Assembly: GCF_007923295.1 (NCBI RefSeq)
Contig: NZ_VOIR01000012.1
Location: forward strand, 1-64,000
Direction: 5' to 3'
DNA: 64,000 nt
DNA from: Agrococcus sediminis
GTDB taxonomy: Bacteria > Actinomycetota > Actinomycetes > Actinomycetales > Microbacteriaceae
The position numbers and the translations under genes were made by a program. Positions 27,136 to 33,740 of the stretch are shown here, piece after piece. How positions within the stretch are numbered: the stretch's first letter is position 1; each line of letters begins with the position of its first letter. The notes under the pieces were generated by a model, which did not search any database, had not been told where the DNA came from, and saw only the letters and a list, made by a program, of their open reading frames with translations.

Positions 27136-28121
27136 GCAGGCACGCGCCCGCTGACGAGCTCGCGGTCGTGCGCGACCATGCGCCGCACGAGCCCCTGGAA
27201 GTCGACGTCGCGGCGCCAGCCGAGCAGCGCCTCCGCCTTCGAGGGGTCGCCGAGCAGGATGTCGACCTCCGCGGGCCGCATGTACTCGGGGTTCTGCCGC
27301 ACGTAGGGGCGCCAGTCGTCGACGCCGATCTCGGCGAACGCCCGCGCGAGGAAGTCCTCGATCGAGTGCGTCACGCCGGTGGCGAGCACGAAGTCCTCGG
27401 GCGTCGGGTGCTGCAGCATCTGCCACATGCCGCGCACGTAGTCGCCGGCGTAGCCCCAGTCGCGCTTGGGCCACAGGTCGCCCAGCTCGATCGCGTCCTG
27501 CAGGCCCGCCTCGATGCGCGCGACCCCGTCGGTGATCTTGCGGGTGACGAACTCGACGCCGCGGCGCTCCCCCTCGTGGTTGAAGAGGATGCCGCAGGAG
27601 ACGAACATGCCGTAGCTCTCGCGGTAGTTCTTCGCCGTCCAGTGGCCGTAGAGCTTCGCGACGCCGTAGGGGCTGCGCGGGTGGAACAGCGAGTCCTCGG
27701 CGTAGCCCCGGCCGGGGCGGTTGTAGTCGAGGCCGCCGAACATCTCGGAGGTCGACGCCTGGTAGAAGCGCGTCAGCCCGCCGCGGCCGGTGACCCGCAC
27801 CGCCTCGAGCAGGTTGAGCACGCCCTTGCCGGTGACCTCGGCGGTGAGCGCCGGGTTCTTGAAGGAGTAGCCGACGTGGCTGATCGCGGCGAGGTTGTAG
27901 AGCTCGTCGGGCGCCGCCATCTCGACGGCGCGGATGAGCGAGGTCGGGTCGGTGAGGTCGCCCTCGAGCAGCGTGACGGCCGGGAACTCCTCCCGGACGG
28001 CGTGGCGCTTCGGGTTGTGCTGCCCGCGGATGAGGCCGAACACCTCGTAGCCCTGCGCGAGGAGCAGCTCGGCCAGGTGTCCGCCGTCCTGCCCCGTGAT
28101 GCCCGTGACCAGCGCTCGCAT
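27132..28121 (-). CDS. gmd: GDP-mannose 4,6-dehydratase
   Basis: Converts GDP-D-mannose to GDP-4-keto-6-deoxy-D-mannose with bound NADP+. The 329-residue protein shows VTGITGQDGGHLAELLL, YNLAAISHVGYSF, QASTSEMFGG, the catalytic SPYGVAKLYGHW, and FNHEGERRGVEFVTRKI, all classical for Gmd. ATG 28121 follows a GGAGGG site and a plausible promoter. It is first of a minus-strand run gmd-rmd-rimJ-glpR-like. Assignment is firm. Confidence 0.94.
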   Translation of the reverse strand: MRALVTGITGQDGGHLAELLLAQGYEVFGLIRGQHNPKRHAVREEFPAVTLLEGDLTDPTSLIRAVEMAAPDELYNLAAISHVGYSFKNPALTAEVTGKGVLNLLEAVRVTGRGGLTRFYQASTSEMFGGLDYNRPGRGYAEDSLFHPRSPYGVAKLYGHWTAKNYRESYGMFVSCGILFNHEGERRGVEFVTRKITDGVARIEAGLQDAIELGDLWPKRDWGYAGDYVRGMWQMLQHPTPEDFVLATGVTHSIEDFLARAFAEIGVDDWRPYVRQNPEYMRPAEVDILLGDPSKAEALLGWRRDVDFQGLVRRMVAHDRELVSGRVPA

Positions 28122-28146
28122 CGCACCCTCCGTCGCTCCTGCCCTC

Positions 28147-28176
28147 ACAGTACGGTTTGCGTCACACCTTTATCAA
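28147..28176 (-). promoter_or_regulatory. Predicted promoter of the gmd-rmd-rimJ run
   Basis: Read on the minus strand, TTGATA (28171-28176) and TACTGT (28147-28152) are 18 bases apart, with the gmd ATG about 25 bases beyond the -10 box. The low-GC patch stands out from its surroundings. Confidence 0.45.
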
Positions 28177-28257
28177 ACAGTGTTCCGCAACGTCGGCTCA
28201 GGAGAGCGGCAGGACCCAGGCGAAGCCCGTTCACCGGCACGCGCTAGATTCCGGGGC

Positions 28258-28848
28258 GTGAGCGACCCGGAGCACGACGTCGAGGAGGCCAAGAGCGCCC
28301 TGCGCCGACGCCTGCGCACCGAGCGAGCCGAGCGCGGCGCGGCCTTCGCCGCCGAGCGCGCCGACGGCCTCGCTGCCAACCTGCAGGCGCTCACGCGCGC
28401 GCTCGGCGCCCGCACGATCTCGGCCTACCTCTCGCTCCCGGAGGAGCCCGACACGCGCGCCTTCCTCCGCTGGGCCGACGCCCAGGGCATCCGCGTGCTG
28501 CTGCCGGTCATCCGCCCCGACGGCCTGCTCGACTGGGCCGAGCACGACGGCACCGAGACCGTCGAGGCGACGCTCGGCATGCCCGAGCCCACCGCCGATG
28601 CGCTCCCGCCGACCGCGCTCGACGAGGTCGACCTCATGCTCGTGCCCGCGACGGCGGTCGGCCGCGACGGCTCGCGCCTCGGCGGCGGCCGCGGATTCTT
28701 CGACAAGACCATCGCCGCGATGGCAGAATGTCCTCCGGTCTATGCCGTCGTGCACGACGAGGAGCTCTTCGACTCCGTGCCGCACGCGGCCTACGACCAG
28801 CCGGTCGACGGCGTCGTCACGCAGTCCGGCATCCACCACACGTCCTGA
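28258..28848 (+). CDS. 5-formyltetrahydrofolate cyclo-ligase
   Basis: A 196-residue enzyme that uses ATP to turn 5-formyl-THF into 5,10-methenyl-THF, recycling an otherwise dead-end folate. The family signature is near the C-terminus as GSRLGGGRGFFDK, with the earlier ALRRRLRTERAER helix and ISAYLSLPEEPDT strand. The start is GTG 28258, divergent from gmd. It is followed ten bases later by the FmdB-type gene, a common pairing in actinobacteria. Confidence 0.9.
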   Translation: MSDPEHDVEEAKSALRRRLRTERAERGAAFAAERADGLAANLQALTRALGARTISAYLSLPEEPDTRAFLRWADAQGIRVLLPVIRPDGLLDWAEHDGTETVEATLGMPEPTADALPPTALDEVDLMLVPATAVGRDGSRLGGGRGFFDKTIAAMAECPPVYAVVHDEELFDSVPHAAYDQPVDGVVTQSGIHHTS

Positions 28849-28858
28849 GGAGCGCACC

Positions 28859-29131
28859 GTGCCCGTCTACGCCTACGCCTGCACCGCCTGCGGCCACGCC
28901 TTCGATGCGCGCCAGAGCTTCGACGAGCCGTCGCTGACCGTCTGCGAGGTCTGCGGCGGCGCGCTGCGGAAGCAGTTCGGCACCATCGGGGTCACCTTCA
29001 ACGGCTCCGGCTTCTACCGCACCGACTCGCGCGCGAAGAGCGCACCCGCTTCCGGATCCCCCCAGCCCGGTATGGCGAAGACGTCCGCATCGACGACCCC
29101 GTCGTCGGGCGGCGCCGGCACGGCCACCTGA
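28859..29131 (+). CDS. FmdB family zinc-ribbon protein
   Basis: A 90-residue protein starting at GTG 28859 with VPVYAYACTACGHAFDARQ. The four cysteines CTAC and CEVC (about residues 8-37) form a putative zinc ribbon of the FmdB/CxxC regulatory type, and FNGSGFYRTD is the usual end of the conserved part. The remaining tail is Ser/Thr/Pro/Gly-rich and disordered. It is co-transcribed with the cyclo-ligase upstream and perhaps with mscL downstream. The role is uncertain. Confidence 0.85.
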   Translation: MPVYAYACTACGHAFDARQSFDEPSLTVCEVCGGALRKQFGTIGVTFNGSGFYRTDSRAKSAPASGSPQPGMAKTSASTTPSSGGAGTAT

Positions 29132-29170: not shown

Positions 29171-29575
29171 ATGGAGGGCTTCAAGAAGTTCCTGATGCAA
29201 GGCAACGTCGTCGAGCTCGCCGTCGCCGTCGTCATCGGCACGGCGTTCACGGCCATCGTCGCCGCGTTCACCGAGGCGATCATCAATCCACTGCTGGCGC
29301 AGGCCTTCAACGCCGACGACCTCGCCGGAGCAACGGTCGGCATCTTCAAGATCGGCCTGCTCATCGCGGCCATCATCAACTTCCTCGTCATCGCCGCCGT
29401 CGTCTACTTCGTGCTCGTGCTGCCGATGGCGAAGCTCAAGGAGCGCCAGGACCGCCGCCGCGGCGTCTCGCCCGAGGAGCCGGCCGAGACCGACGTCGAC
29501 GTGCTGCAGGACATCCGCGAGCTGCTGCGCGCGCAGCAGGCGCCGGGCGCGGCGCCCGGCTCCCCGCGCGGCTGA
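29171..29575 (+). CDS. mscL: Large-conductance mechanosensitive channel
   Basis: A 134-residue pentameric stretch-activated channel that opens under hypo-osmotic shock. MEGFKKFLMQGNVVELAVAV is the family N-terminus, with GTAFTAIVAAFTEAIINPLL forming the first helix and its end. The second helix is IGLLIAAIINFLVIAAVVYF, and a charged helical tail follows. The start is ATG 29171 behind GAGGAGG. It is slightly shorter than E. coli MscL in the periplasmic loop. Confidence 0.93.
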   Translation: MEGFKKFLMQGNVVELAVAVVIGTAFTAIVAAFTEAIINPLLAQAFNADDLAGATVGIFKIGLLIAAIINFLVIAAVVYFVLVLPMAKLKERQDRRRGVSPEEPAETDVDVLQDIRELLRAQQAPGAAPGSPRG

Positions 29576-29682: not shown

Positions 29683-29892
29683 TCAGCCCCAGTGGGGCGG
29701 GACGTCACGACGCAGCTGCTCGTCGTTCTCGCTCCCGCGCTCCTGCCGCTCGACCGGCGGCTCGCCCGTGTACCCGGGCGACGGCTCGGTCGAGACGCGC
29801 TTGCCCCGCCGGCGGATGACGAGCGGCGCGGGCTGCGGCGCCGCCGCATCCGCTGCCTCCCCGCCGTCGGCCGGGCCGCCCTCGTGCGTCAC
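29683..29892 (-). CDS. Small conserved protein translationally coupled to the helicase-like gene
   Basis: A 69-residue hydrophilic protein beginning VTHEGGPADGG and ending RRDVPPHWG. Its GTG start overlaps the TGA stop of the upstream helicase-like gene in the sequence GTGA, so the two are translated together. The RRRGKRVSTEP segment followed by a charged stretch and a terminal PPHW is a pattern I associate with short actinobacterial hypothetical proteins of unknown function. There is no membrane segment or cysteine. It is easily missed because it lies in a different frame at the end of a long open antisense-looking stretch. Confidence 0.65.
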   Translation of the reverse strand: MTHEGGPADGGEAADAAAPQPAPLVIRRRGKRVSTEPSPGYTGEPPVERQERGSENDEQLRRDVPPHWG

Positions 29893-32800
29893 GACGACGC
29901 ATCCGCCCCGACGAGCTCGGCGATGCGGTCGGCGACGCCCTCGGGGTCGGTGAAGAGCTCGAAGGCGTGCACGCGCATCGTGTGCCAGCCGAAGCGGCGC
30001 AGCACCTCGGGCCGCAGCCGCAGCGCCTCGCGGAGCGTGCGGTCGCCGTCGTCGTGGTCGGCCTCGATCGCGGCGCAGATGCCGCCGTTCGCCACCACGA
30101 GCGGCAGCTGGTCGTCGTAGGAGACGTCGGCGCGGAGGCCCCGGCGGCGCAGGCGCGTCGCGAGGTCCACCATGAGCGGGTCGCCGCCGAAGAACGTCGG
30201 GGCGCGATCCTCGGCCGCGATGTCGAGCAGGATCTCGCGCAGCATCGCCGCGCCGTGCGCGAGCCGCTCGGGGTCGAGCTCGGCCGCGTCGAACGACGTG
30301 ACGATCTGCAGCGCCTTGCGGGCGCGGGTCATCGCGACGGCGAGCAGGCGCTCGCCGCCCGGCTGCCCCAGCGTGCCGAAGTCGACGTTGCGGCCGTGCT
30401 TCGTGCGGCCGTAGCCGACCGAGAAGATCACCCGGTCGCGGCTGAGCGCGCTCGCGTGCGTGACGTCGACGATGACGAACGGCTCCTCGCGGTCGGCGAC
30501 CACGAAGTCGGTGAGCTGGTTCGACGACGCGAGCGCCGCCATCACCGCCTGCTGGATGCGCACCTCGTGCTTCTCGTTGGCGGTCACCACCATGAGCGAT
30601 TCCTGCGGCCGCGAGCGCGCGTGCTGCGTGACGAGCTGCACGACCCGGTCGACCTCGGCGTCGGGGCTCTCGACCGTCGCCGCGCCCTGCTCGGGCAGCC
30701 CGTGGGCGCCGTGCACGATCGAGGCGGTGAGCGAGGCGTGCCCGAGGTAGGCGCCGGCCCACGGCAGCGCCTCGATGCGGCCCTCGTAGAAGCGCTCGTT
30801 CACGGCCGCGACGAGGTCGGCGCCGCCCGTGCGGTACGAGCGCGTCAGGTGCAGCGTCGGCAGCACCTGCCCGAGCCGCGACAGCGCCGACTCGGCGTGC
30901 AGCTCGTCGGGCGTCGCGAGCTCCTCGCTCGGGCGGATGCCGAGGGTCGAGATGCCCACGTCGAACGGCGCGGGCGTCTGCGTCGCCGAGTCGCCGAGCG
31001 CGATCACCTGCCGCGCGCGGCTGATGGCGCCGGCGGCCTCGGCGATCGTGATGGCGCCGGCGTCGGCGATGATCACGGCGTCGAAGGGGAGGCGCTTCGG
31101 CACCCGGTGCAGGTCGTACGGCGAGGCGAGCCACACGGGCGCCACCGAGCGCGTCAGGTGCGGCGCGAGGCGCTGCAGCTCGTCGGCGTCGACGGGACCG
31201 GCCTTGATGAGGCGACGCAGCGCATCCGCCTCGTCCGGGTGGTCGTCGACCGCGAGGCGCCATCCCTGCGCGACCTGGTGCGCGAGGCGTGCGCTCGACG
31301 CGTCGACGTGCGCCTCGTCGACGAGCGCGAAGTCCTGCTCGAGGCGTCGCAGCACGTCGGTGTTGCCGCGCAGCAGCGCCCGCTCCCGGCCCAGCATCGA
31401 CTGCAGCGCCGACTGCCACCATGCGAGGTCGAGCTCGTGCTCGACCTGGTCGTCGGCGACGTGCCGGTCGGCGAAGTCGGTCAGCAGCGCGTCGAGGCCG
31501 AGCCGCTCGACCGAGCTCATCAGCTCGGCCCGCTCCTGGATGTTCTGCAGCGCGTCGCTCGGAGCCGCGAGCTCGGCGATGCGCGCCTCGAGCTCCTCGA
31601 TCGGCAGGTCGACGCTGCGCACCTCGGGCTTGAGGGCCGCGTCGAGGCGGTCGAGCCGCACGACGACGTCGCGCAGGCGCGCGTCGAGCGCGGCGAGGCC
31701 CGCCGGCACCGACGGGATCGAGCCGTCGGGCGCGAACTTCGCCCACAGCCGCCGCTGCTGCTGCGCGGCGACGAGCACGTCGTGCAGGTCGGGCACGTGG
31801 CTGCCGGGGCGGATGTACTCCTCGGCGAGCTTCTTGAGCCGCCGGCGCTGCATCGCGCCGAGCGACTGGATCGCCTCGCGGCGCGGGCCCGTCGCGGTGA
31901 TGAGCTCGCCGAGCGGGCGGTCGTAGAGCGACGGCGTCATGACGTCGAGCGTGGCCCGCACGTCGGTGAGCAGCGCGACCTGGATGCCGAGCTCGGCGAG
32001 GGTCGCCGCGGGCCGCAGCTTCGTGTCGCCGATCACGCGGCGCGCCTCGGTGAGCAGCGCCTCGAGGTCGCCGCCGGAGGTGCCCGGCCCGGTCGTCGCC
32101 GACCCGGCGAGCGCCTGCGAGTCGGCGAGGGCGGCGGATGCGTCGCCCGAGGAATCGAAGGAGGCCCCGTACCAGGGCGTGTCGCTCGGCCCGTAGCGGA
32201 ACTGCCCGAGGGCCGCGGCCTTCCGCATCGTCGCCGCCACGCGCGGCCGGTCGGTCGCGAGCGCGACCGTCGCCTGCTCGCTCAGCCGCGCGCGCGTCGA
32301 CGGCGGCGTCGGCAGCATCGCGAGCCGCGACAGCTCCTTGAGCGCGTCGAGCACCGACACCTGCAGCTTCGGGTCGACCCGCTGCAGCGCGGCACGGTAG
32401 TCGAGCAGCACCTTCCGCAGGCGCAGCATCGCCTCGTCGATCTCGCCGGTGTCGGGGCGCTCGGACTGCTCGATGCGGCGGATCGCGCCGATGAGGTCGC
32501 GCCGCAGCGTCGCCTCCGAGACGGCGAGCGACTCGAGCTTCGTGCTCGCGAGCCGATCGCCGATGTCGCGCAGCGTCGCTCGGCGGGGGCTGACGACGAG
32601 CACGCGGCGGTCGTCGCCCACGAGCGCCGCGATCACGTTGACGATCGTCTGCGTGAGGCCCGTGCCGGGCAGCGCCTCGACGACGAGCGAGTTGCCGGCG
32701 GCCGCCTCGGCGATCACTGCGTCCTGCTCGGCGTCGGCGTCGAGCACGAGCCGGTCGACCTCGGGGTCGCGGCTGTCCTGCGGGGTCTCGTCGACGCCCG

Positions 32801-33740
32801 CGCGGCCCTCGCGCACGCGCCACGCTGCCTGCTCGTCGCCGCGCACCGCGTCGAGCACGTCGTGCGGCTGCTGCTGCAGGTCGGCGGCCATCGGCTCGCC
32901 GACGTCGGCGAAGGTCGAGGCGAGCAGTCGCGCCTCGACGGTGAAGCCGGGCACGTGCGCCGCCGCCTGGCGCAGCGCGTCGAGCACGGCGTTGGGCGTG
33001 AAGGTGCCCTCGCCGGAGCCGAGCTCGATCAGCTGCCGCTCGTCGAGCCGCACGCCGTGGTGGCCGCGCAGGATGCTCGCGATGCGCGGGTTGACGAAGG
33101 GGCGGCCGAGCAGCTGCAGCTCGAAGTCGCGCCCGCGGCGGCGCACGACGAGCGGGCGCAGCAGCACCGGGCCGTACACCTCGCCGCGGCCGCCGCCGGC
33201 GTCGGCGTGCGGGAACCGCGCCATGCCGATGCCGAGGTGCACGGCGTCGATCGAGCGGGCGGCCGCGAGCTCGATGCCCTTCGACGCGATCGCCGCGGCC
33301 GCCGAGCGGGCGGCGCGGAGCGCGAGGTCGTCTCGGATGAGGCTCGAGAGCGCCGTCGGCCGGCCGGTGATGAACTGGGCGAGGCCGCCCGGATGCGTCG
33401 TCGAGAGCTCGATGCGGGTCGCGGTCGTGTCGATGAAGTCGGTCAGCGGGCTCCGCCCGCCCACGCGCCGGAGCGCATCCGCCCACGCCTGCCACTCCCC
33501 CTCGCGCCGGCGCACGCGCGGCGCCGGCTCGGCGGCGGCCGGCTCGGGCGCGAGGCTGCGGTCGGGGCCGGGCTCGGGGGCGTCGTGGGCGTCGAGGATC
33601 GCGTCCTCGGCGGCGTCGGCCACGGCCTCCGCCTCGTTCAGCGCAGCGCGGTCGACGGCGGCGCCGCGGGCGCCCGCCGTCTCGTGCGTCGCCTCGTCGA
33701 CGGGCCCGTCGCCCCGGATCTCGGTCTCGTCTTCACGCAC
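29889..33740 (-). CDS. Superfamily 1 helicase-like protein with degenerate ATP motifs and C-terminal nuclease-like domain
   Basis: A 1283-residue protein related to UPF1/DUF4011-type SF1 helicases. A disordered acidic N-terminus (1-75) precedes the core. At about residue 350 the P-loop reads LPGTGLTQT where GTGK(S/T)QT is expected, so the lysine is replaced by leucine. Near 888 the Walker B region reads FDAVIIADAGAITIAEA instead of D-E-A-S. Later VIALGDSATQTP and LLAVAMTRARKAL (near 1133) keep helicase motifs III and VI recognisable. From about 1165 a Vsr/REase-like fold is suggested by GGDPLMVDLATRLRRRGL, CAAIEADHDDGD and LRRFGWHTMRVHAFELF. The start is GTG 33740. Probably a nucleic-acid-binding or nuclease protein; the helicase activity is doubtful. 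Confidence 0.75.
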   Translation of the reverse strand: MREDETEIRGDGPVDEATHETAGARGAAVDRAALNEAEAVADAAEDAILDAHDAPEPGPDRSLAPEPAAAEPAPRVRRREGEWQAWADALRRVGGRSPLTDFIDTTATRIELSTTHPGGLAQFITGRPTALSSLIRDDLALRAARSAAAAIASKGIELAAARSIDAVHLGIGMARFPHADAGGGRGEVYGPVLLRPLVVRRRGRDFELQLLGRPFVNPRIASILRGHHGVRLDERQLIELGSGEGTFTPNAVLDALRQAAAHVPGFTVEARLLASTFADVGEPMAADLQQQPHDVLDAVRGDEQAAWRVREGRAGVDETPQDSRDPEVDRLVLDADAEQDAVIAEAAAGNSLVVEALPGTGLTQTIVNVIAALVGDDRRVLVVSPRRATLRDIGDRLASTKLESLAVSEATLRRDLIGAIRRIEQSERPDTGEIDEAMLRLRKVLLDYRAALQRVDPKLQVSVLDALKELSRLAMLPTPPSTRARLSEQATVALATDRPRVAATMRKAAALGQFRYGPSDTPWYGASFDSSGDASAALADSQALAGSATTGPGTSGGDLEALLTEARRVIGDTKLRPAATLAELGIQVALLTDVRATLDVMTPSLYDRPLGELITATGPRREAIQSLGAMQRRRLKKLAEEYIRPGSHVPDLHDVLVAAQQQRRLWAKFAPDGSIPSVPAGLAALDARLRDVVVRLDRLDAALKPEVRSVDLPIEELEARIAELAAPSDALQNIQERAELMSSVERLGLDALLTDFADRHVADDQVEHELDLAWWQSALQSMLGRERALLRGNTDVLRRLEQDFALVDEAHVDASSARLAHQVAQGWRLAVDDHPDEADALRRLIKAGPVDADELQRLAPHLTRSVAPVWLASPYDLHRVPKRLPFDAVIIADAGAITIAEAAGAISRARQVIALGDSATQTPAPFDVGISTLGIRPSEELATPDELHAESALSRLGQVLPTLHLTRSYRTGGADLVAAVNERFYEGRIEALPWAGAYLGHASLTASIVHGAHGLPEQGAATVESPDAEVDRVVQLVTQHARSRPQESLMVVTANEKHEVRIQQAVMAALASSNQLTDFVVADREEPFVIVDVTHASALSRDRVIFSVGYGRTKHGRNVDFGTLGQPGGERLLAVAMTRARKALQIVTSFDAAELDPERLAHGAAMLREILLDIAAEDRAPTFFGGDPLMVDLATRLRRRGLRADVSYDDQLPLVVANGGICAAIEADHDDGDRTLREALRLRPEVLRRFGWHTMRVHAFELFTDPEGVADRIAELVGADASS

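Follow-up and report, generated by a model that had tools for sequence, protein, structure and literature searches.

The described proteins closest to the subject of this report belong to the DUF4011-type anti-phage families Hhe, ProA and PDC-S37, in which a superfamily 1 (SF1) helicase core is combined with a nuclease of the MTES_1575 type; Hhe and ProA presumably require intact Walker motifs. The MTES_1575 domain (REase, Vsr-like nuclease, PF18741) is described in the available text of PMC3710099, and a large core DUF4011 gene flanks the defence hotspot cDHS1 in Pseudomonas aeruginosa, according to the available part of PMC10250203. Here, a stretch of 64,000 nucleotides from Agrococcus sediminis (contig NZ_VOIR01000012.1, positions 1 to 64,000; hereafter the window) is considered, in which a reverse-strand gene encodes a large protein that retains the predicted fold of such a helicase-nuclease and has lost catalytic residues of both ATPase motifs. 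The loss is fixed among the aligned sequences of its family, nearly all sampled genomes of its order contain a match to it, and the gene is coupled to a small downstream gene, called the tail gene below. Genus, family, order and class refer to the lineage of the window (Agrococcus, Microbacteriaceae, Actinomycetales, Actinomycetes).

Fold and catalytic residues of the large protein

The large gene and the parts of its product are as follows.
29889..33740, minus strand: pseudo-helicase-nuclease gene, 1283 residues, GTG start; a DUF4011-type SF1B fold without the Walker A Lys and the Walker B Asp, as judged from translation, family matches, AlphaFold and fold search
32751..33467, minus strand: DUF4011-like N-terminal region, residues about 92-330
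32646..32669, minus strand: P-loop PGTGLTQT, residues 358-365, with Leu362 at the position of the catalytic Lys
31047..31085, minus strand: Walker B region FDAVIIADAGAIT, residues 886-898, with Ala892-Asp893 where intact homologues have Asp-Glu
30318..30329, minus strand: motif VI TRAR, residues 1138-1141, kept
29913..30179, minus strand: PD-(D/E)XK/Vsr-like domain of the MTES_1575 type, residues 1188-1276, with Pro1213 at the first catalytic Asp and the ExD element E1226-A-D1228 kept

In the original prediction, made from the letters of the window, a P-loop PGTGLTQT with Lys changed to Leu, a segment IIADAGAIT devoid of DE and a surviving motif VI had been recognized; all three readings hold, although the P-loop had been placed a few bases away, at 32656-32676. 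That the change is not local is evident from an alignment of 149 sequences, which comprises the window protein and every locus that scores above 400 bits with a family profile and spans more than 900 profile positions, apart from 19 loci that were set aside because they were truncated, overlapped others or nearly duplicated them. It contains 72 sequences of the family, 9 intact ones and 68 others, and its rows share ancestry (Agrococcus alone supplies 22 of the 72) and do not represent independent events. The Walker A Lys is present in 9 of the 149 sequences, all from basal lineages, and in none of the 72 or the 68. These nine homologues also carry the Walker B Asp-Glu and the first nuclease Asp without exception, an agreement that is informative because they were called intact by the Lys alone. 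Intact homologues exist, but with the Lys missing from every aligned family sequence the change is neither local nor a product of chance or of a sequencing slip.

Within the family, the column of the lost Lys holds G in 33 sequences, L in 18, V in 6, S in 6, A in 4, Y in 3, T in 1 and I in 1; its entropy is 2.21 bits, and about 75% of the columns are more conserved. Around it, no variation occurs at G359, Q364 and N368 and hardly any at G361 and T363, which is to say that, on the evidence of the alignment, the P-loop is maintained and the catalytic residue alone is free to vary. The Walker B Asp is likewise absent from all 72 sequences, and the neighbouring Asp893, at the position of the Glu, is Asp in 71. 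The Arg of motif IV is kept in 72 of 72, and those of motif VI in 69 (R1139) and 71 (R1141). The window protein thus lacks the Walker A Lys and the Walker B Asp-Glu that characterize SF1B (Upf1-like) helicases. Elsewhere in the order the P-loop has decayed further, as in PGSDVAAT or FPKGTAEQ. All eight DUF4011 paralogues examined have GKSQT and DEAS, one of them from the genome of the window, where a separate and much larger DUF4011-type protein (frame of more than 2,000 residues, contig C1:16669-17637, loci L002 and L190) has both motifs intact.

A tree inferred from 132 sequences, with DUF4011 paralogues as outgroup, contains three maximal clades that lack the Lys, with 107 tips (support 0.974), 2 tips (0.991) and 6 tips (0.178, weak), and the clade of two is nested among intact sequences with a support of 0.698. 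This topology indicates that the Lys was lost once at an early date and probably on one or more further occasions. The ratio of non-synonymous to synonymous substitution rates (dN/dS) between the window gene and its homologues from Agrococcus, computed over residues 85-1283, was 0.20-0.29 in all ten comparisons, a sign of purifying selection. Together with the near-invariant residues flanking the lost Lys, it identifies the large protein, as far as sequence can tell, as a maintained pseudo-ATPase. A group outside the order (L095-L100) has replaced the Lys by Arg (GRTQT/GRSQT), perhaps an independent route to the same loss; there, a gap of some hundreds of bases separates the large gene from the tail gene downstream in four of six loci, L097 has the two side by side, and L096 yielded no tail.

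For the C-terminal domain, the catalytic residues were assigned from their conservation in the intact homologues and from what is known of the family. The Vsr-like segment EADHDD that had been predicted is present and lies in the region that matches MTES_1575, but the match of the window protein is weak (E 5.2e-6, 26.9 bits, below the gathering cut-off of 38.2 bits), while intact homologues pass (L160, 7.3e-20; L091, 3.5e-20; L102, 1.6e-35). In the AlphaFold model, the last 90 or so residues run as helix, three strands, helix, strand and helices, an order compatible with a PD-(D/E)XK-type domain; the nuclease fold is probably present. The active site D...ExD is nevertheless incomplete, with Pro1213 in place of the Asp. 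The first catalytic Asp is found in all 9 intact sequences, in 23 of the 68 others and in none of the 72 family sequences, where position 1226 is Glu in 58 and position 1228 Asp in 72, and its family-wide absence suggests that the nuclease is probably dead as well. The picture of an ATPase unable to hydrolyse ATP that keeps a nuclease therefore stands in its first half, since hydrolysis is very probably abolished to judge from the motifs, and finds no support in its second.

The Pfam matches of the window protein are all below cut-off (the MTES_1575 nuclease, AAA_12, AAA_11 and three weaker ones). DUF4011 (PF13195) gave no match to it at E 1; among aligned homologues, it is above its cut-off in L091, L160, L102 and L078, and below it in L126 and L131. 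As the intact relatives L091, L160 and L102 exceed the cut-offs for DUF4011, AAA_11, AAA_12 and MTES_1575, the window protein can be regarded as a decayed member of that architecture. The NCBIfam model ProA (NF058533, of a pair with Hhe, NF042953) matches it with E 6.7e-83 and 279 bits, far from the curated cut-off of 1500, and Hhe reaches 121 bits for a cut-off of 2000. The PADLOC model PDC-S37, for which no curated cut-off is given, matches with E 3.6e-91, the better of two stretches aligning residues 682-1277 with positions 732-1338 of 1550. No solved structure was matched by sequence search at E 1. The AlphaFold model of residues 85-1283, built on an alignment of 66 sequences, has a predicted local distance difference test score (pLDDT) of 91.1 and a predicted template modelling score (pTM) of 0.81. 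Foldseek placed Setx (4.6e-12), the spliceosome helicase Aquarius, Upf1 (1.4e-9) and IGHMBP2 at the top, with Sen1 and, lower, Dna2 among the best 50, in keeping with two predicted RecA-like domains of the Upf1-like fold; many of the long alignments have a large root-mean-square deviation, and only the RecA-like core can be read from them. In four homologues (L151, L154, L156, L102) the large protein extends beyond the nuclease by a segment that the window protein does not have, and which we take to resemble the winged helix-turn-helix region of DUF3320.

The tail gene and its surroundings

The original prediction made no mention of the small partner gene.
29683..29892, minus strand: tail gene, 69 residues, whose GTG start overlaps the TGA stop of the large gene (GTGA), with the C-terminus ENDEQLRRDVPPHWG

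Its product matches no family in Pfam or NCBIfam. When open reading frames (ORFs) ending in PPH[WYFAN] were sought in the 130 loci whose sequence extends 800 bases or more downstream, a tail was found downstream of the large gene, or fused to it, in 124. The same scan returned 1 of 130 on the antisense strand, 1 upstream, 2 upstream in antisense and 2 inside the gene, which rules out a chance ORF. In 18 of 148 loci the tail forms the C-terminus of the large protein itself, and as these loci are spread over seven families (f1, f6, f10, f14, f16, f18, f19), fusion seems to have occurred repeatedly. A narrower pattern recognized 109 separate tails and none in 21 loci, partly because the stretch ended or the pattern was too narrow; 55 of the 109 have the four-base stop/start overlap, whereas independence of tail frame and stop context would give about 21. 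The tail gene evolves faster than the large gene, with dN/dS of 0.28-0.77 in the nine pairs out of ten that gave a value, of which one has an uncertain start. Among 127 tail ends, Asp occupies position -8 in 105, Arg position -6 in 84 and Leu position -5 in 98, and PPH, itself imposed by the search, is followed by Trp in 101. The conserved end can be written ND-x-R-L-x-x-(D/E)-x-PPHW(G).

The tail is also found without the helicase. A profile built from 40 tails and run on 98 genomes of the class matched 62 of them at E ≤ 0.1 and 36 at E ≤ 0.001, and in 25 of the latter 36 no match to the helicase exceeds 200 bits; these counts are rough, since chance matches are expected at E 0.1 per genome and the profile overlooked one genome, G284, whose tail is fused. 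Twenty tail places, strong and weak ones mixed, were inspected, of which five were recognized by the looser pattern only. In one (L248, genome G461) a helicase lies elsewhere in the genome and the tail is doubtful; the other 19 have an FmdB-type gene in 18 cases and mscL in 13. Tails beside mscL and fmdB in genomes of the class that lack the helicase suggest that the tail already belonged to that neighbourhood; in the window's order, the helicase is found on the upstream side of the tail. On this comparison of genomes, the tail predates its pairing with the helicase. In many genomes of the class without the helicase, small genes (L232-L251) with the end DDERLLRERPPHW or PPHHG are located close to mscL and fmdB, and they apparently encode a class-wide small acidic protein.

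In the window, three conserved neighbours follow on the opposite strand.
29171..29575, plus strand: mscL, convergent with the tail gene (Pfam MscL, 9.5e-30)
28859..29131, plus strand: zinc-ribbon gene, presumably of the FmdB type (Pfam Zn_ribbon_8, 9.6e-15)
28096..28848, plus strand: open frame for 5-formyltetrahydrofolate cyclo-ligase, start provisional (Pfam 5-FTHF_cyc-lig, 2.9e-32)

Among 55 larger loci of 6-19 kb, in which the cluster of the large gene itself was recovered 54 times, clusters of mscL were found in 28, of the cyclo-ligase in 21, of a SAF-domain gene in 21 and of the FmdB-type gene in 15. These are lower bounds, given the short stretches and the crude picking of genes. In Actinomyces oris the annotated order is 'DNA helicase' - 'hypothetical protein' - mscL - SAF - cyclo-ligase - glp - GNAT, with PGSDVAGT at the P-loop of the helicase and a tail ending in SNDARLRRDVPPHWG; there, the annotation of both partners masks what they are. 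A 415-kb 'plasmid' record of the same species (L211, NZ_CP116225.1 375016-389100) has the conserved chromosomal neighbourhood of the large gene; its designation as a plasmid may reflect a misassembly or a secondary replicon.

Distribution and competing explanations

Counted at E ≤ 0.001, as matches and not as proven orthologues, relatives of the large protein are found in 23 of 24 genomes of the genus, in 247 of 249 of the family (224 of 225 good genomes and 85 of 85 genera) and in 193 of 198 of the order (186 of 188 good genomes). At the level of the class, 23 of 98 genomes have a match, 13 of these 23 above 200 bits, and the matches below 200 bits may largely be other DUF4011 proteins. The gene is retained in genomes of 0.8-0.9 Mb (G038, G318, G439).

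The explanation that we consider rather probable is that this order-wide pseudo-enzyme is a vertically inherited, non-catalytic scaffold that binds nucleic acid and works with the tail peptide. An active DUF4011-type SF1B helicase-nuclease would have arrived beside the older tail gene, next to mscL, in the ancestor of the window's order. It would have lost its Walker A Lys and its Walker B Asp, and with them ATPase chemistry, in a single event ancestral to most of the order and probably in at least one further event elsewhere, and the window's family would have come to lack the first nuclease Asp as well. With the fold and much of the motor surface retained, the two RecA-like domains and the DUF4011 region might grip DNA or RNA without translocation, as an ATP-independent clamp or scaffold, and the co-translated tail peptide might dock on the large protein and recruit or regulate another core factor, in what we infer to be a housekeeping role.

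Several observations weigh against this scaffold model. The many genomes of the class with a tail and no helicase imply that the tail has no need of the helicase. Conversely, no tail was recognized in six of the 130 loci (L096, L102, L126, L171, L187, L188), one of which (L187) has a tail-like end about 3 kb away; in the single-contig genome G038 (927,303 bp; L126 / L202), the pseudo-helicase frame of 1175 residues has no recognisable tail downstream. Some matches in the order are weak (5.5e-15 in G296, 8.4e-23 in G285) and could be paralogues. Asp893, kept in 71 of 72 sequences, and the otherwise intact P-loop of the family make nucleotide binding possible. In a modelled fused homologue (L131), the tail is of low confidence, with block means of 48-63, and docking received no structural support. 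Finally, no biochemistry or knockout results for the large protein were found.

The original prediction had named a defence or repair factor as a possibility, and a sensor or effector akin to Hhe, ProA and PDC-S37, whose degenerate helicase would detect foreign DNA and signal through the nuclease or a partner, has in its favour that the best named family matches are all defence models. The scores far under the curated cut-offs argue against such a role, as do the near-universal presence in the order, the synteny with housekeeping genes and the retention in reduced genomes, which are unlike mobile defence genes. No relative was detected in viral contigs by a search that reached close relatives only, and 50,697 phage records gave one distant match, which covers 35% of the query at 24% identity. 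A match was present in 325 plasmid records; of the 20 listed, 17 are annotated as DUF3320 or DUF4011, one as 'DNA helicase-related' and one not at all, and the best among those listed is that of Actinomyces oris, in which the large gene has its chromosomal neighbours. A defence role is therefore unlikely, and a mobile or defence-island gene is not favoured by these searches and the conserved neighbourhood.

It is also improbable, in our estimation, that the protein is still an ATPase, with a non-canonical, Lys-less P-loop assisted by another basic residue and Asp893 as the catalytic acid. The near-invariance of the other P-loop residues, the retention of Asp893 and of the Arg residues in motifs IV and VI, and the change of Lys to Arg in some lineages (L095-L100) are what such an enzyme would display; yet the metal-ligand Asp of Walker B is gone too, the loop Gly and Thr also decay elsewhere in the order, and there is no single basic replacement. 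A displaced Lys (deviant Walker A) at the upstream position 355 was rejected as a general rescue, this residue being K in 30 and E in 24 of the 72 sequences. A live nuclease on a dead motor, with cleavage by the C-terminal domain and the ATPase part serving as clamp or sensor, agrees with the kept E1226 and D1228 and with the order of secondary structures, and is made very unlikely by the family-wide loss of the first catalytic Asp, which 23 of the 68 other sequences keep, and by the Pfam score under cut-off. As for a pseudogene or a strain-local mutation, the missing catalytic residues are what it would predict, but their loss is fixed in the aligned family, the frames are full-length and dN/dS is low, which rules it out for practical purposes.

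Beyond the scaffold model, a bolder proposal, which we put forward tentatively and would not wager on, is that the two proteins form a probably essential, order-wide complex, where the large one descends from a captured helicase-nuclease of the defence type and now serves as a non-catalytic clamp on a class-wide small acidic protein, the PPHW/PPHH C-terminus of the latter being an undescribed recruitment motif. In the open-access literature, which was surveyed in part, no description of an order-wide inactive DUF4011 helicase or of the tail was found, and the word 'helicase' does not occur in the available main text of a transposon-directed insertion-site sequencing (TraDIS) paper on Bifidobacterium breve (PMC5514069). 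A costly protein of about 1,200 residues is kept by nearly every sampled genome of the order, those of 0.8-0.9 Mb included, with its motor residues gone in most aligned sequences. If the proposal were true, a new core actinobacterial factor would stand under the label 'DNA helicase', as a case of immune machinery domesticated into housekeeping; a core function of a clinically and industrially important group would lack a name, and a class-wide peptide motif would await its receptor.

Comparison with known systems

The C-terminal domain of the window protein aligns with REase_MTES_1575 and differs from it in the Pro that replaces the first catalytic Asp, a residue absent from the 72 family sequences. 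The DUF4011 gene at cDHS1 of P. aeruginosa, likened here by its description, is species-core and adjoins a small hypothetical gene; it belongs to another lineage, and the available part of PMC10250203 describes no loss of catalytic residues. The SF1B Upf1-like helicases (Setx, Upf1, IGHMBP2, Aquarius, Dna2) share the predicted core fold, whereas the window protein is bacterial, is devoid of the Walker A Lys and the Walker B Asp, and possesses a DUF4011 region and a long helical middle. Its domain arrangement presumably also differs from that of Dna2. With Hhe, ProA and PDC-S37, it has in common the SF1 helicase core and the MTES_1575-type nuclease, and its relatives L091, L160 and L102 score 774-865 bits with ProA. 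Unlike these systems, it remains far under the curated cut-offs and has lost catalytic residues, Leu362 and Ala892 standing where Hhe and ProA have intact Walker A and B motifs, and it is conserved and syntenic across an order and coupled to a small PPHW protein.

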